Shown: positions 1,561-29,115 of the stretch, in pieces | How the letters are laid out: every line of letters begins with the position of its first letter | Position numbering within the stretch: position 1 is the stretch's first letter | Source of the DNA: Tardiphaga sp. vice304 | Lineage (GTDB): Bacteria > Pseudomonadota > Alphaproteobacteria > Rhizobiales > Xanthobacteraceae | Direction: 5' to 3' | NCBI RefSeq assembly: GCF_007018905.1 | Contig: NZ_CP041402.1 | Span: 2,344,001 to 2,408,000, forward strand | Length of the DNA: 64,000 nucleotides | Position numbers and translations under genes: made by a program | Notes under the pieces: generated by a model | What the model was told of the DNA's origin: nothing | Databases searched by the model: none | Seen by the model: only the letters and a program-made list of their open reading frames with translations

Positions 1561-1706
1561 CGTCGTCCCGGGGCGCGAGAGCGCAGCTCGAGCGAACCCG
1601 GGACCCCGACATGGGACGATGAACATTTCGAGGTCCCCCGCCACTCCAATTGGAGTGGCTGAGGTTCGCGATCGCCTCGCGGCGTTTGCGCCCCGGGACG
1701 ACAGTG
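1561..1706. repeat. family A palindromic repeat with nested 18-bp palindrome
   Basis: Outer arms are TCGTCCCGGGGCGCGAG and GCGCCCCGGGACGACA. The inner region carries CCGACATGGGACGATGAAC. A perfect 18-bp palindrome, CCACTCCAATTGGAGTGG, lies at 1641-1658. The repeat sits between the SDR and thiolase genes. Confidence 0.85.
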
Positions 1707-7488: not shown

Positions 7489-7498
7489 AGCAAAACAC

Positions 7499-7615
7499 TG
7501 TCGTTCCGGGGCGCGAGCGCATCAGCGCGAGCGAACCCGGAATCTCGAACTGTTTTGAACATTTCGGGATTCCGGGCTCGCGCTCGGCTGACGCCGCCCG
7601 CGCCCCGGAATGACA
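7499..7615. repeat. family A palindromic repeat, complete copy
   Basis: The outer arms are TGTCGTTCCGGGGCGCGAG and CGCGCCCCGGAATGACA, with inner arms AACCCGGAATCTCGAA and TTCGGGATTCCGGGCTCG around a short loop. About 117 bp; no coding potential. Confidence 0.85.
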
Positions 7616-8563: not shown

Positions 8564-9790
8564 ATGACCGACCTCGCCGAAGCCGATGTAACTATCCAGA
8601 CACGCACTCACGCGGGCGTCTATCTCGCGGTGCTGCAGCTCGTCTTCACGCTGCTGTGGACGGTCTACGTCATCTATCTGCCGAAGCTGGCGGCAGACGT
8701 GGGCATCGTACCGTCCGCCGTTATCTTCATCCTGATGCTCGACCAGCTGATCTTCACTGTCACCGACACCGCGATGGGCATTTTCGCCGATCGCATTTCG
8801 CGCGTCGTCGGCCGGCTCGGCCTGATCGTGGGATTGCTCACCGCGATCTCCTGCGCGGCCTTCGTCGCACTGCCCTTCGTGGCGGGGCAGGGGCCCTCGG
8901 CGCAGGCCGCGCTGATCGGCCTGATCGTGGTGTGGGCGATCACCTCGTCGACGCTGCGCGCGCCGCCGCTGACGCTGCTCGGCAAATATGCCGCAAAACC
9001 GTCGCGGCCGTTTCTGGCCGCCCTCGCCATGCTCGGCTACGGCATCGCCGGCGCGGTGTCGCCCTATCTCGGCGTCGTGCTGCGCGACAGCGATGCGCGG
9101 CTGCCGTTCATTCTCTCCAGCGCGGTGCTGCTGGCGGTGACCCTGATGCTGACGCGGGTCGAGCGCGGGCTGGTGTCGGCGCAGGCCGCCGCGCCTTGCG
9201 TGCTGCCGCCGGCCAAGGCGCTGCGCCGCGTGCCGATGCTGTTCATTGCCGCGATGCTGCTGCTGGCGCTCGGCTACCAATTGCATTTCAGCATCAACAG
9301 CGCGCCGTTCTTCCTGCGCTTCGCTAGGCCCGGCGATCTGCAATGGCTGCTGCCGGTGTTCTGGATCGGCTTCAACATCGCGCTGTTTCCGGCCAGCGTG
9401 GTGACGAAGCGGCGCGGCGGGCTGGTGGTGATGGGCGCGGCCGGCCTGCTCGGCGCCGCCGCCATGATCGGTGCGGAAGTCGCCGGCAGCCTCAACGTGC
9501 TGATCGTCACGCAATTTATCGCCGGCGCCGCCTGGGGCTGCATGCTGATGTCGGCGGTGGCCGCGGCCCTTGCCATCGGCGAGACCGGCGCCGAGGGCAA
9601 GGTGGTCGGCCTGGTCTTCTCCGCGCTGGCGCTGGCGACCTTTGCGCGGATGGCGGCGGTGGCCGGTGGCCTGCAGAAGCTGCCGGACTACGCGCCGCTG
9701 CTGCACTGGGCGCCGGTGGCGTGCTGGTCGGTCGCCGGCGCCGGGCTGCTGGTATTGGCCGCGTCGAGGTTGCAGTCGAAGCGCCTATAA
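8564..9790 (+). CDS. MFS transporter
   Basis: This is a 408-residue integral membrane protein with about 12 hydrophobic segments, the first at residues ~20-40 (VYLAVLQLVFTLLWTVYVIY). A degenerate major-facilitator loop (GIFADRISRVVGR) lies between TM2 and TM3. The ATG at 8564 is preceded by GGAGCAGCC at a good distance; the frame upstream to 8531 is in repeat-flanking DNA. It is related to cation/drug-type MFS proteins of rhizobia, and no substrate can be named. It lies downstream of alkB but is separated from it by a repeat. Confidence 0.85.
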   Translation: MTDLAEADVTIQTRTHAGVYLAVLQLVFTLLWTVYVIYLPKLAADVGIVPSAVIFILMLDQLIFTVTDTAMGIFADRISRVVGRLGLIVGLLTAISCAAFVALPFVAGQGPSAQAALIGLIVVWAITSSTLRAPPLTLLGKYAAKPSRPFLAALAMLGYGIAGAVSPYLGVVLRDSDARLPFILSSAVLLAVTLMLTRVERGLVSAQAAAPCVLPPAKALRRVPMLFIAAMLLLALGYQLHFSINSAPFFLRFARPGDLQWLLPVFWIGFNIALFPASVVTKRRGGLVVMGAAGLLGAAAMIGAEVAGSLNVLIVTQFIAGAAWGCMLMSAVAAALAIGETGAEGKVVGLVFSALALATFARMAAVAGGLQKLPDYAPLLHWAPVACWSVAGAGLLVLAASRLQSKRL

Positions 9791-9791
9791 T

Positions 9792-9909
9792 TGTCGTTCC
9801 GGGGCGCGAACGCCGCGAGGCGATCGCGAACCCGGAACCCCGACATGTTCAAAGCAAATCGAGGTTCCGGGCTCGCTCGCGCAAGATGCGCTCGCGCCCC
9901 GGAATGACA
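9792..9909. repeat. family A palindromic repeat, complete copy
   Basis: TGTCGTTCCGGGGCGCGAACG at the left is mirrored by CGCTCGCGCCCCGGAATGACA. Inner arms are GAACCCCGACATG and AAATCGAGGTTCCGGG. It lies between the convergent MFS and ThDP-enzyme genes, where it could act as a bidirectional terminator. Confidence 0.85.
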
Positions 9910-9911
9910 GC

Positions 9912-20208: not shown

Positions 20209-20225
20209 AGCGCTTCACCATCACC

Positions 20226-20344
20226 CGTCATTGCGAGGAGCGAAGCGACGCGGCAATCCAGAGCCACAAGCGAAAGAAGACTGGATTGCTTCGTCGCAAG
20301 GGCTAAGGGGAAAGCCAATTGGCTTTCCCTGACCTCGCAATGAC
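20226..20344. repeat. family C repeat (CGTCATTGCGAGG type) with 22-bp palindrome
   Basis: CGTCATTGCGAGG at the left is mirrored by CCTCGCAATGACG at the right. GCAATCCAG/CTGGATTGC forms the inner stem. A perfect 22-bp palindrome, GGGAAAGCC-AATT-GGCTTTCCC, occupies 20308-20329. Confidence 0.85.
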
Positions 20345-21158: not shown

Positions 21159-21302
21159 TGTCGTTCCGGGGCGGGAGCGGCGCGAGCCGCTACCGAACCT
21201 CAGCCACTCCAATTGGAGTGGTGGGGAACCCCGACATGGGACGATGAACACTTCGAGATTCCGGGTTCGCTCGCGCTGGTGCGCTCGCGCCCCGGAATGA
21301 CA
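21159..21302. repeat. family A palindromic repeat with nested 18-bp palindrome
   Basis: TGTCGTTCCGGGGCGGGAG at the left is mirrored by GCTCGCGCCCCGGAATGACA at the right. The nested CCACTCCAATTGGAGTGG palindrome lies at 21204-21221. Confidence 0.85.
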
Positions 21303-23303: not shown

Positions 23304-23327
23304 ACCTGGACCGACTGATCTGTCGCC

Positions 23328-23828
23328 ATGAACGACAAGACCTACATTCTCACCGCCGAGCTGGACGATGCCAGTTTCGATTGGCTCGACGCGCTGCGCC
23401 GTGAACATTTTCCGCCCGAGCGTAACGTGTTGTCGGCGCATCTCACGATGTTTCATCGCCTGTCCGGCGCGCAGATCGAGCGGCTGCCGCTGGTTGCCAT
23501 ACCGGACCAGCCGATCGACCTCGATGTCGACGGCTTGCGCTTTCTGGGCGGCGGCGTGGCCTTCAATCTGCGATCACCGGGGCTGGCGCGCCTGCGCGAA
23601 GCGATCATCGCCGCGATGGCAGGCGAGTTGTCGCGACAGGACGCCCAGAAATGGACGCCGCATGTGACGGTGCAGAACAAGGTGAAAACGGAAATCGCCC
23701 GCGATCTGTTCGTGACGCTCAGTGAAGACTTCGCCGGCCGCGCCGGCCACGCCACGGCATTGCTGGTCTGGGAGTATCTGGGCGGACCCTGGCGGTTGGT
23801 CCGGCGCCTGCCGTTCGCGCCCGGCTGA
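23328..23828 (+). CDS. 2'-5' RNA ligase / 2H phosphoesterase family protein
   Basis: This is a 166-residue protein with the two HxT motifs of the 2H phosphoesterase superfamily, His38-Leu-Thr40 (AHLTMF) and His112-Val-Thr114 (PHVTVQNK), at the expected ~75-residue spacing. Members hydrolyse or form 2'-5' or cyclic phosphodiester bonds, and biological roles are mostly unknown. It probably shares a transcript with the nitroreductase gene. It is convergent with the diguanylate cyclase gene. Confidence 0.85.
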   Translation: MNDKTYILTAELDDASFDWLDALRREHFPPERNVLSAHLTMFHRLSGAQIERLPLVAIPDQPIDLDVDGLRFLGGGVAFNLRSPGLARLREAIIAAMAGELSRQDAQKWTPHVTVQNKVKTEIARDLFVTLSEDFAGRAGHATALLVWEYLGGPWRLVRRLPFAPG

Positions 23829-23880
23829 AGCGGGCGCGCAGAGCCGATCCACACCCTTCAGCCCAGAGCGGGGCGAGCCC

Positions 23881-25158
23881 TCATGCCGCCGCCACGGCGC
23901 TTGCCGCCTTGTGCACGCGGTTGCGGCCGGTGTGTTTGGCGACGTAAAGCGCTGCGTCGGCGACACGCAGCAAATCCTCGCCAATGCGCGCGGTGGCGCA
24001 GCCGAGGCTGACCGTGATCGACAATTCGCCCTGCGGCGTCGCCACCCGCATGGCGGCGACCGCCAGCCGCAGCCGTTCGGCCATCTCGCTGGCGTCGGAC
24101 AGGGTCCCGGTCAGCAGCACCGCGAACTCTTCGCCGCCAAGACGCGCAAATACGTCCTTCGGACGGATCGTCTGGCTAATCGTTTCGGCAAAGGCCGTCA
24201 GAACCATATCGCCGGCAACATGTCCGTGGCTATCATTGACCCGTTTGAAATGATCGATGTCGAGCATGATCAGCGACAGCGGCGTGCCGTGTTCACTCCA
24301 GGCCTGCTGCGCGCGCTCGAACAGATGCTGGAAGCGGGCGCGGTTGGCCGCGCCGGTCAGATGGTCCTGCGTCAGCAGGCGGCGCAGGTCGCCGGTGTCA
24401 TAGGCCGGCCGCGCGATATCGCGCAACACCACGGTGTAGCCGACGAGATCGCCTTGGCTGCCGACGCGTGCGGCAAGCAGGCGCTGGCACCAGTAGCGCG
24501 AGCCGTCGGCCCGCACATGCGACATTTCGTCGAGATGCCAGCCGTCGCGCGCACAGCCCCGCAGCAGCTCGGCCATGCCGACAGCGTCGTCGTCGGTGGA
24601 CGGAAAGATATCGGCGAGCGTCTGTCCGAGCACCCGCTCGCGGGCTTCGCCGGTCTGCGCCGTCCATGAATCATTGACGGCATCGACCAAGCCATCGGAG
24701 GTGATCGAAAGCACGGCATAGTCGTTGATGTCGTTCATCAGCGACGAGAACCAGGTCTCGGCCTGTTTCAGCCGCCGCTCCTGGGCGACCTGCTGGGTGA
24801 TGTCCGAAATGCAGGCAATGGCGCGGTCGGGGTCCAGCTTGACCAGCGTGCAGGCCAGTACCTTGGGCTCCGGGCCGTCGCGATCGCGCCCGATGTCGAC
24901 CGTGATGCGGTGACCGTCGCAGACGGTGCCACGCTCGCCGTCAAAGCCATCGAGCAGATTGCGCAATTCCGGCGCGGAGTTTTCCAGCATGGCAAACAGA
25001 TTGCCGGAATCGCGTGCGCCGGTCAGCGGCAGCAGGTGTTTCATCGCATAGGGGTTGATCATCATGATCGCTCCCAACGCATTGATCTCCACCAGCCCGG
25101 TCGGCGCTGCATAGAGGAACTCAAGCAGTCTCTCTTCGTCGCTTACGATCTGCGCCAT
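23881..25158 (-). CDS. PAS-PAS-GGDEF diguanylate cyclase
   Basis: This 425-residue soluble protein has an N-terminal PAS-like domain (~8-120), a second PAS domain (~133-250; ITSDGLVDAVNDSW, VRADGSRYWCQ) and a GGDEF domain (~265-420). The active site is GGEEF at 341-345, with an inhibitory I-site RPKD at 332-335, so c-di-GMP synthesis with product feedback is expected. The first in-frame ATG is at 25158; an upstream TTG at 25173 overlaps the previous gene and is rejected. It starts 4 bp after the PYP-like gene, indicating co-translation, and no membrane segment is seen. The input signal is probably relayed from, or shared with, that photoreceptor-like protein. Confidence 0.92.
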   Translation of the reverse strand: MAQIVSDEERLLEFLYAAPTGLVEINALGAIMMINPYAMKHLLPLTGARDSGNLFAMLENSAPELRNLLDGFDGERGTVCDGHRITVDIGRDRDGPEPKVLACTLVKLDPDRAIACISDITQQVAQERRLKQAETWFSSLMNDINDYAVLSITSDGLVDAVNDSWTAQTGEARERVLGQTLADIFPSTDDDAVGMAELLRGCARDGWHLDEMSHVRADGSRYWCQRLLAARVGSQGDLVGYTVVLRDIARPAYDTGDLRRLLTQDHLTGAANRARFQHLFERAQQAWSEHGTPLSLIMLDIDHFKRVNDSHGHVAGDMVLTAFAETISQTIRPKDVFARLGGEEFAVLLTGTLSDASEMAERLRLAVAAMRVATPQGELSITVSLGCATARIGEDLLRVADAALYVAKHTGRNRVHKAASAVAAA

Positions 25159-25162
25159 CGCT

Positions 25163-25528
25163 TCACCGTGCAATGAGAATGTAGCGCAACGGGGCGGACG
25201 GGCTGGCGAGCAGACGCATCCGCACCTGCGTCGGCCGCATCCGCAGCGTCAGCACGTAAGGGATGATCGTATCGAGTTCCGCCTCGTCCTCGAAGCGCTG
25301 CGCGACCAGATAGTTGTTCATGCACTGCGCGACAGCGCCGAAGAAATCCGAGCCGATTACCTTGTCCGGTGACAGCCCTGCCATCCGCGATTCGGTAGCG
25401 TTGTAGAGCTTGGCGATGCCGGAGCGATCCAGGCCGATGACGCCGAAGGGAAGCTGGTTGCAATCGTCGGGCCGCATCGCCTGCAGGTCTCCCAGCGTCA
25501 TCGTCTCGATCGTCGTGTCGGTCGTCAT
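25163..25528 (-). CDS. photoactive-yellow-protein-like PAS protein
   Basis: This 121-residue single-PAS protein has nearly the length of photoactive yellow protein (125). Counted from the ATG at 25528, Tyr42 and Glu46 (LYNATES) and Cys69 (VAQCM) occupy the same numbers as the PYP chromophore-pocket residues. The N-terminal cap (LPFGVIGLD) and MRPTQVRM strand also align with PYP. Thr50 and Arg52 are replaced by Ala and Leu, and Pro68 by Gln. The longer frame to 25639 is rejected because it breaks this alignment. If p-coumarate is attached to Cys69 it would be a blue-light sensor. No tyrosine ammonia lyase or coumaryl ligase gene is in the window, so a chromophore-less PAS protein is the alternative. 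Confidence 0.75.
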   Translation of the reverse strand: MTTDTTIETMTLGDLQAMRPDDCNQLPFGVIGLDRSGIAKLYNATESRMAGLSPDKVIGSDFFGAVAQCMNNYLVAQRFEDEAELDTIIPYVLTLRMRPTQVRMRLLASPSAPLRYILIAR

Positions 25529-25757
25529 ATCAGCCAAAATAATCTCCATCGCATCAAGCTGCCACGCTAGGCCACAACCATTAATAGAGTAATAGGATAC
25601 GCATAAAAAACGTCCGCGGCGTGACGGGCCGACTGCCATGTTCCGGACTGCGAGACCGCGCGGGCCGACGTCTCACCGGGCAGCGCCACACAATGGCGCC
25701 TCAATCGCAAGCGTTTACGGATTAAATCGAATGGGCGGCGGGCGGCTGCGCTGCTGG

Positions 25758-25982
25758 TTACGACGCCAGTGACAGCTTGGAACGGCGGTCATCCCGCATC
25801 CAGGCTTCGAGCTGATCGGTCTCGAGCGGTCGCGCGATGAAATAGCCCTGCGCCTCGTCGCACTGCATCTCGCAGAGCCACTGCTGGATAATGGCGGTCT
25901 CCACGCCTTCGCCGACCACGCGGTAGCCGAGGTCGTGCGACAGCTGGATCATCGCCCGCACCAGCAGGCGTTCCTTCTCGGC
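25758..25982 (-). pseudogene. EAL-domain phosphodiesterase, C-terminal relic
   Basis: The last 74 codons before TAA at 25758 are a clear EAL C-terminus: EKERLLVRAMIQLSHDLGYR, then VVGEGVET and the CDEAQGYFIARPL loop with a trailing QLEAWM. Everything upstream of EKER, including the EAL motif and most catalytic residues, is gone. At 25981-25982 the frame runs into antisense of a broken amidohydrolase. It lies on the same strand as, and 230 bp upstream of, the PYP-like gene, so a c-di-GMP hydrolase may once have belonged to that module. Confidence 0.85.
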
Positions 25983-26592
25983 CCATGTGCATCTGATGTT
26001 CAGTTCGCTGCCGCAGATTGCCTTGCTCACCTCCGACATCGGCTTGGTCAATATCGTCGCATCCAGGGCGGCAACCGACATGCTGATGCGCGGCTTCACC
26101 AGCGTCCGCGATCTCGGCGGCCCGTCCTTCGGGCTGAAAAGGCGATCGATAGCGGCGTGGTGGCCGGCCCGCGCATCTGACCGTCGGGGGCCCTGATTTC
26201 CCAGACCGGCGGCCATGGCGATTTCCGGTTGCCGACCGAATTGCCGGCGGCGCCCGAGGCGTTCGGCTACACGGACCGGATCGGCGCTGCCGCCATCGCG
26301 GACGACGAGGCCACCGTGCGCAAGCGCGCGCGAGGCCCGGGTGGTCAAGTGGTATACGCCGGCCGAAACATTGCAGATCGCGACCTACAACAACGGACAG
26401 CTTCTCGCGCTGTCAGGTCCGCGCTCGCCCTATCCGGGAAAACTTGGCGTGATCGAAGCGGGCGCGCTGGCCGACCTGCTGCTCGTCGATGGCGATCCGA
26501 CGAAGGATCTCACGCTGGTGGCGGACGCGGCGAAGAACTTTCTTGTGATCATGAAGGACGGCAAGATCTACAAGAACGTAGTGGCTAAGTAA
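25981..26592 (+). pseudogene. amidohydrolase (imidazolonepropionase-like), degraded
   Basis: Pieces of one metal-dependent amidohydrolase lie in order in different frames. AHVHLMFSSLPQ (metal HxH) starts at 25981 and continues to MRGFTSVRDLGGPSFGLK. A one-base loss near 26143 shifts the frame to AIDSGVVAGPRI, which meets TGA at 26178. The same frame then reads SQTGGHGDFRLPTELP to ATVRKRAR. After a deletion near 26335 the C-terminus follows: VVKWYTPAETLQIATYNNGQ, GALADLLLVDGDP, IMKDGKIYKN. The N-terminal ~70 residues and the central barrel are missing. Four lesions make function impossible. Confidence 0.88.
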
Positions 26593-26621
26593 CAAGCCCG
26601 GGCTACACAACGAAGCCGAAT

Positions 26622-26690
26622 TTGCGCGACATCGCCTCCGCGAGTAGTCCCCGCGAACGCGGGGACCCATAGCCTCCGTCAGGTGTGATA
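26622..26690. repeat. family D repeat, half copy
   Basis: GCGACATCGCCTCCGCGAGT, then a CCCCGCGAACGCGGGG hairpin (26649-26664) and GACCCATAGCCTCCGTC. This matches the left half of the 22381-22440 repeat; the right half is missing. Confidence 0.85.
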
Positions 26691-26699
26691 CCAAGACGT

Positions 26700-27286
26700 C
26701 TGCCGCACGCCCAAGTCTTTTCAGGACGCCGGATTGTGTCGCTTGACAATATCCCTAACAGGACTATTATCCGTATCGTCCCGCTCCACTGGGAGGGGCG
26801 GCTCGCGATCGTCACGATACGCGGGGCGGGATGCGGTGACGCGACAGCGTCAGGCGCAGAGGTTGGTGGCTGGGCGGCACCCACAAGGGCCGTGAACCAT
26901 CGATCGAAGCGCTGACGAACCACGCTGTCGCGCCGGCCCAAGTCGTGTGGTTTCTCGATGCCGAACGGGGCATCGCGGATCGGAGAGTTCGCAACGCCTA
27001 CCGGCCTGCGAGCCGCATCCTCAGTTCCGGGCGTCGACCATTCCGCCGGAAAGAGCACGAAGCAAGCCGGAGCCTCATCGCGTGCGGAACGCCGGGTGAT
27101 ACCCCGGTGAATCCGGAAGTTTCCGGGCGCATTCCCCTTGCCGAATACGGCATCGGCGCCTGGACCATGGGTGCATCGGGCACTCGGCGTTCCGCGCGCC
27201 CTCTCGAGAGGGCAGGGAATGCAAGACGAGACGACGGCGTCCCCGCGCCGCAAACAACAGGGGCGATGTCGCATGTCTGTCGATCG
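26700..27286. other. 587-bp non-genic stretch, probable dispersed-repeat remnant
   Basis: Between the decayed amidohydrolase and the palindrome at 27287 no frame shows protein-family features; the longest minus-strand frame (27274 to 26603) is rich in Arg/Pro/Ser without domain marks. The sequence from about 26777 (CCGCTCCACTGGGAGGGGCG, then GCGGGGCGGGATGCGGTG and AAGTCGTGTGGTTTCTCGAT) resembles, from memory, a dispersed bradyrhizobial element often mis-annotated as ORFs. This recollection could not be verified here. Confidence 0.4.
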
Positions 27287-28973: not shown

Positions 28974-28994
28974 CCAACTGTCATTGCCACAAAC

Positions 28995-29115
28995 TGTCAT
29001 TCCGGGGCGCGAGCGCGTAAGCCGCGAGCGAACCCGGAACCTCGACATGGGACGATGAACATGTCGAGGTTCCGGGTTCGCGTTCGGCTGACGCCGCCCG
29101 CGCCCCGGAACGACA
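28995..29115. repeat. family A palindromic repeat, complete copy
   Basis: TGTCATTCCGGGGCGCGAGC is mirrored by GCCCGCGCCCCGGAACGACA; inner arms GAACCCGGAACCTCGACATG and CATGTCGAGGTTCCGGGTTC form a 20-bp perfect stem around a GGACGATGAA loop. Confidence 0.88.

Follow-up and report, generated by a model that had tools for sequence, protein, structure and literature searches.

Clade C photoactive yellow protein beside a diguanylate cyclase in Tardiphaga sp. vice304: a probable two-gene remnant of a pyp module spread by horizontal transfer

Photoactive yellow protein (PYP) is linked to cyclic di-GMP (c-di-GMP) output in described systems such as Ppd of Thermochromatium tepidum, a PYP-phytochrome-GGDEF-EAL protein (PMC12826048), and Idiomarina loihiensis, where a single-domain PYP is believed to act on the product of an adjacent GGDEF gene (PMC9664959, PMC12826048) and where blue light is reported to reduce biofilm in a PYP-dependent manner (PMC12826048). 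Among the pyp operons analysed in the available text of PMC12826048, GGDEF occurs in 29, pCL in 42, and TAL in 7. Here we describe a pyp gene (25163..25537, minus strand) and a diguanylate cyclase gene (23881..25158, minus strand) in a 64,000-nucleotide stretch of the Tardiphaga sp. vice304 genome (NZ_CP041402.1, positions 2,344,001 to 2,408,000), referred to as the window. The locus has in common with those operons the broad notion that PYP influences c-di-GMP; however, Ppd is one fused chain with a phytochrome, whereas the window has two separate genes and no phytochrome, and the Idiomarina PYP belongs to clade A. Like clade C PYPs as presented in the available text of PMC9664959, the window protein keeps Tyr42, Glu46, Cys69, and Met100 but not Phe92, Phe96, or Trp119, and has an adjacent GGDEF gene; clade C includes members from Burkholderiales. 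That account names, in its available text, neither the partner's N-terminal domain nor a group with Gln68; PMC12826048 names no receiver domain, and the window differs from its operons in having no ligase. These are the two papers on this theme in the open literature searched. The PYP-GGDEF pairing is already in print; what the present locus adds is the Gln68 group, the loss of the ligase, and the receiver-like domain. On balance, we favor the view that the clade C PYP and its partner cyclase are what is left, in two genes, of a pyp module that has spread by horizontal transfer.

The PYP protein and its pocket

An earlier note on this DNA had proposed a split two-gene switch from light to c-di-GMP, and both genes are where it placed them: a 121-codon open reading frame (ORF) from ATG 25528 and, 4 bp beyond it on the same minus strand, a cyclase of 425 residues. 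Three starts are available to pyp, at ATG 25528 (121 aa), TTG 25537 (124 aa), and ATG 25549 (128 aa), all leading to the stop at 25163-25165. TTG 25537 is the better start, because a GGAG stands 6 nt ahead of it, compared with 15 nt ahead of ATG 25528, and because homologues such as P0007 start at the TTG codon. The claim that Tyr42, Glu46, and Cys69 fall on the exact PYP numbers therefore holds in the 121-aa reading only, and is lost with the 124-aa product; the alignment is unaffected, and the window protein runs without gaps against 1otd and 1mzu from residue 17 past all three positions.

Could this simply be a generic single-PAS protein with a Tyr, a Glu, and a Cys that happens to sit beside a cyclase? 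Pfam alone would allow it, reporting just a sub-threshold PAS match (21.2 bits against 22.6). Such an origin is extremely improbable and we reject it: the sole NCBIfam family match is TIGR02373 photo_yellow (E 2.6e-19 and 69.5 bits, where the curated cut-off is 143.05 bits), all 33 solved-structure matches at E <= 0.1 are named PYP, PPR, or PYP-derived FAST (the best being 1mzu at E 5.4e-15 and 1otd at E 2.6e-11), and the predicted structure has the PYP fold. The profile search and the pocket prediction suggested in the earlier note both came out in its favor, the former below the cut-off. TIGR02373 itself recognises 155 RefSeq PYPs, or 20% coverage, according to the available text of PMC9664959. 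The features by which that paper delimits the family, namely a Cys69 at the chromophore attachment position, Tyr42 with Glu46, and the PYP fold, are all present, and judged by sequence and predicted fold the window protein is a real PYP-family member with a complete pocket.

Conservation among relatives follows the same positions. Across the query and the best 120 of 2214 matches, Tyr42, Asn43, Glu46, Leu52, Phe62, Phe63, Gln68, Cys69, Met70, Leu96, Met100, and Pro102 are invariant (121/121). We also collected 80 loci (L021-L100, the top 80 among 120 confirmed matches) through the peptide patterns QCMNN[FY][ML]V and P[FY]VLTLRMR, so that there is some selection at residues 69-75 and 90-98; Tyr42, Glu46, Cys69, Met70, Leu96, Thr97, and Met100 are invariant among them, and position 68 is Gln in 62 and Pro in 18. 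In those 18 Pro68 loci, Cys69 cannot be a product of the scan pattern. The earlier note had flagged residues 50, 52, and 68 as unusual. Ala50 and Leu52 are the consensus of 984 PYPs in the available text of PMC12826048, which together with a Foldseek search settles the concern over those two; Gln68, by contrast, is a true departure from the Pro68 that the family conserves. Compared with H. halophila PYP, the window protein has a 3-residue deletion after residue 80. It carries Ile92, Leu96, and Tyr119 and keeps Met100, and by the published residue traits of PMC9664959 it reads as a genuine clade C PYP. Its closest named homologues come from Tardiphaga metagenome-assembled genomes. In plasmid records, NZ_CP048421.1 (8728-9090) among them, clade C PYPs are annotated as 'phosphonate transporter' or 'hypothetical protein'.

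The N-terminal domain of the cyclase

The partner protein has three domains, all encoded on the minus strand. The GGDEF domain (residues 264-414, 23917..24369; PF00990, E 2.6e-41) has the GG(D/E)EF active site of a diguanylate cyclase in the form GGEEF (residues 341-345, 24124..24138), which is invariant in alignment A3, and the inhibitory-site-like motif RPKD (residues 332-335, 24154..24165) is also read in the translation, as the earlier note had it. Residues 142-250 (24409..24735) form a second PAS domain matching Pfam PAS_4/PAS_9. Residues 1-122 (24793..25158) form the PAS-like domain that we propose as the PYP receiver: in the predicted model of the cyclase (pLDDT 84.6, pTM 0.53) their strands and helices succeed one another as in a PAS domain, and a helix at 121-141 comes after them; no Pfam family scores above cut-off in 8/8 members scanned (the window protein and seven others), and no solved relative of this region was found by sequence.

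The gene-neighborhood survey proposed in the earlier note bears out the pairing. In 80/80 loci, the N-terminal domain starts between -40 and +200 bp from the end of the PYP domain on the same strand; the loci were fetched by PYP, and the partner's N-terminal domain played no part in their selection. GGEEF or GGDEF is present in 74 of the 80 frames, the other six being three histidine kinases (L084, which is from Sphaerotilus hippei, L087, and L093), one frame cut by a contig end inside GGDEF (L091), and two broken genes (L073 and L074). In the histidine kinases and in two GGDEF-EAL proteins (L075 and L098) that stand beside PYP, the N-terminal domain is recognised at 59-130 bits, whereas the second PAS of the cyclase is not common to them (<= 3 bits). 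Searched at E <= 1e-8 through 50 PYP-bearing genomes, the domain profile finds 61 places, every one (61/61) at a clade C PYP, 56 of them in the genome's fetched locus and five at further PYP loci (L046 and L190-L193). Among 398 genomes of the phylum, with at most 11 candidates scored per genome so that absences are less firm, the domain occurs in the window's genome (G000, 166.6 bits) and beside the PYP of G581 (151.4 and 124.9 bits), with one weak match in G455 (29.6 bits); strong PYP matches, of clade C type, are likewise limited to G000 and G581, and three distant ones score 33-58 bits. The domain is absent around 22 stretches with other PYP-like genes, as judged from about 1.5 kb on each side. 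In cyclase-sized proteins it has 242 matches at E <= 1e-5; among the best 120 of these, most have GGDEF, and no output domain of another kind appears.

Because every copy in those 50 genomes is beside a clade C PYP and the domain heads histidine kinases and GGDEF-EAL proteins as well as cyclases, residues 1-122 are probably the PYP receiver. The linkage is good evidence for a dedicated partner domain and is no proof of contact. It is somewhat more likely than not that the region represents a PAS family, as yet without a name, whose sole role is to read clade C PYP and which evolution has joined to GGDEF, GGDEF-EAL, and histidine-kinase outputs.

We propose that a p-coumaroyl thioester would sit on Cys69 of PYP, held by Tyr42 and Glu46, with the pocket drawn from sequence and predicted fold and the chromophore inferred. 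Light would alter the shape of PYP, as in the family at large, and PYP would dock on the N-terminal PAS-like domain of the cyclase, as suggested by the exclusive genome-wide linkage and the swapping of the remainder of the protein. From there the signal would travel along a coiled coil and across the second PAS domain until it reached the active site, GGEEF, setting the c-di-GMP level. A functional pairing of PYP and cyclase is supported by these comparisons. For relatives with a PYP-type p-coumarate:CoA ligase in the operon, a switch from light to c-di-GMP can fairly be inferred; for vice304 itself, light sensing and control of c-di-GMP are hypothetical.

Some loci show further variation. RxxD five residues before GGEEF is found in 37/80 partners and is missing in most Sphingomonas partners, which may mean that branches vary in product inhibition. 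In L072, L083, L089, L090, L187, and L194-L197, another protein with the N-terminal domain lies 1.3-2.7 kb further on, as if one PYP served two outputs. The L073 cyclase is split into two parts separated by about 2.1 kb, as an insertion would leave it.

Chromophore genes in the strain and its relatives

The 80 loci are distributed over the Alpha-, Beta-, and Gammaproteobacteria, the Acidobacteriota, and the Myxococcota, and organism names point many of them to leaves and lichens. A TIGR02372-type p-coumarate:CoA ligase is encoded within the stretch at 56/80 loci, directly after the cyclase in 53 and elsewhere in 3; for the four ligases examined, no other NCBIfam model comes near TIGR02372, which scores 286-319 bits, below its cut-off of 334.7. 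The ligase accompanies 54 of the 62 Gln68 loci versus 2 of the 18 Pro68 loci, one of the latter two being a weak partial match 3 kb away. A plasmid of Sphingomonas insulae carries, in a row, pyp (annotated 'phosphonate transporter'), the cyclase, an AMP-binding protein, and an EAL protein, and 13 plasmid records were matched, 12 of them at 52.8-65.7% identity. We lean toward the order pyp, cyclase, PYP-type p-coumarate:CoA ligase as the usual alphaproteobacterial form of a horizontally spread module.

The window departs from this form. Downstream (3') of its cyclase, where relatives have p-coumarate:CoA ligase, there is a convergent gene for a 2'-5' RNA ligase/2H-type phosphoesterase (23328..23828, plus strand; PF13563, E 2.2e-16). 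A tblastn search of the window with the relatives' ligase ORFs found no ligase remnant between 22.5 and 24 kb. Two matches at 23.9-25.1 kb (E 4e-25 and 3e-20) were rejected, being the cyclase frame under long alternative-frame ORFs, and the remaining matches elsewhere in the window all have E > 0.001. A tree of PYP plus cyclase has 70 rows, the window and 69 of the 80 loci, namely those with a chosen partner ORF of 390-470 aa; it was built by a quick method, and some of its branches are long (L083 and L087 come together). In it, the window falls into one group with two Sphingomonas rows that have the ligase (99*) and is nested in a larger ligase-bearing group, and the simple reading is therefore that the ligase gene was lost from the window locus. 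A complete pyp operon with chromophore genes is not found here, both the TIGR02372 ligase and the PF00221 lyase being missing. In vice304, the proposed pathway would thus draw on p-coumarate from plants or the environment, loaded by a general acyl-CoA ligase, or PYP would stay in the apo form.

Several results weigh against the reading of the pair as a light-responsive PYP and its cyclase. PF00221 (TAL/HAL/PAL) has no match in the window's genome, in a search for which a 14-genome control was positive in 5, and that genome has no TIGR02372-type ligase, the best candidate reaching 45.4 bits as a partial match to the C-terminal third. There are 26 AMP-binding matches in the genome, and of the 19 scanned against NCBIfam none is named a p-coumarate ligase. 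The PYP itself falls short of the TIGR02373 cut-off and is not filed under that equivalog, and no natural fusion of a PYP of this type with a cyclase occurs among 213 candidates (about 300-955 aa, E <= 1e-6). Distance correlations with PYP (partial) come to 0.44 for the N-terminal domain, 0.13 for the second PAS, and -0.04 for GGDEF, and the margin narrows to 0.31, 0.14, and 0.18 without four long rows; the N-terminal domain ranks first in just 88-89% of bootstraps, a weak preference that we do not use as proof. Separately, the p-hydroxycinnamoyl-CoA hydratase/lyase model displayed as PRK09120.1, which we take to be NF006588, scores at best 180.3 bits in the window's genome against a cut-off of 276.

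The earlier note had held that a genome without tal and p-coumaryl ligase genes would speak against its switch, and neither is present. The switch thus stands as to PYP membership, pocket, and pairing, and falls short as to chromophore genes in this strain. The missing lyase is, however, a weaker objection than supposed, because many relatives lack it too. In the genomes of 50 of the 80 loci, which were searched for PF00221, the ligase, and the N-terminal domain, the ligase (E <= 1e-50) is present in 34 and PF00221 in 23; 23 of the 34 ligase-bearing genomes have no PF00221 lyase, and four (L040, L082, L084, and L096) have neither enzyme and keep the pocket. These PF00221 counts include histidine ammonia-lyase, and at most 30 ligase candidates were scored per genome, which makes ligase absences less firm. 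By these gene counts, presumably working modules often lack the lyase, and it is rarer for the ligase to be missing; p-coumarate uptake may therefore be common among relatives, and a generic acyl-CoA ligase could be doing the work in vice304.

The same absences invite a different explanation, that after the loss of ligase and lyase the protein became a dark partner, a light-blind PAS regulator of the cyclase that perhaps binds another ligand. The genome without PF00221 and TIGR02372-type ligase, an operon from which the ligase has gone while relatives retain it, and the presence of Gln68 rather than Pro68 next to the attachment cysteine are all consistent with this. Yet Tyr42, Glu46, Cys69, and every subfamily-invariant position are retained, Gln68 is the residue that goes with the ligase among the loci rather than Pro68, and the four relatives' genomes without either enzyme family have also kept the pocket. 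We consider a dark partner possible but unlikely, and prefer the remnant of a pyp module.

Arrival of the locus

The Tardiphaga genome G155 is collinear with the window from 14.9 to 37.1 kb and beyond, save for 23305-26742, which is represented there by about 211 bp. PYP is absent from 17/17 congeners at E <= 1e-5; weaker PYP matches of 28-47 bits occur in 18 other genomes of the 296 in the family. The nitroreductase gene before the stretch is kept in four other congeners, in different surroundings. The GC content of the 3.4-kb stretch (0.641 versus 0.649 for the window) is unremarkable and no long repeat flanks it; the case for transfer therefore rests on congener absence and the tree, not on composition. 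Deletion in the congeners, as the alternative to transfer, is not strictly excluded.

Recent arrival raises the question of whether the pair is functional at all, or part of a decaying island gained by transfer without the ligase and now drifting. Its absence from all 17 congeners and the missing 3.4 kb in G155 are compatible with drift, as are two gene fragments in the same stretch, an EAL-domain fragment 5' of pyp (25827..25979, within 25761-26348, minus strand; PF00563 profile positions 186-236 of 236, E 9.7e-13) and an amidohydrolase fragment upstream of pyp (26215-26589, plus strand), which overlaps 25761-26348 on the opposite strand. Against drift, neither ORF is broken, the catalytic and pocket motifs are complete, and proteins 95% and 83-86% identical to the window PYP are known from other samples, so the pair has been kept for some time. 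A functionless island seems to us improbable, more so than a dark partner, and the remnant of a horizontally spread module continues to be the reading that we favor.

Both fragments lie inside the stretch that is missing from G155. A whole EAL gene stands upstream of pyp in Methylobacterium relatives; the window fragment covers the last 51 profile positions of the EAL domain. A promoter and terminator scan around pyp gave nothing above chance on the minus strand upstream of the gene. Elsewhere, short dispersed repeats that look like repetitive extragenic palindromes (REP) are common to six intergenic places of the window (1562-1702, 7495-7614, 9790-9910, 20225-20304, 21160-21302, and 28994-29115) and the congener.

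The chain of signals from PYP to cellular responses is called an important knowledge gap in the available text of PMC12826048. A small domain whose presence follows that of clade C PYP from one genome to the next, and which heads varied output enzymes, is a concrete candidate for its first link. The window copy, with an intact pocket and both usual chromophore enzymes gone, offers a natural test between loading with p-coumarate from outside and a PYP that has gone dark. If the proposal is true, PYP would gain a generic, sequence-defined signaling partner, and one sensor with one adaptor could drive several kinds of signaling.
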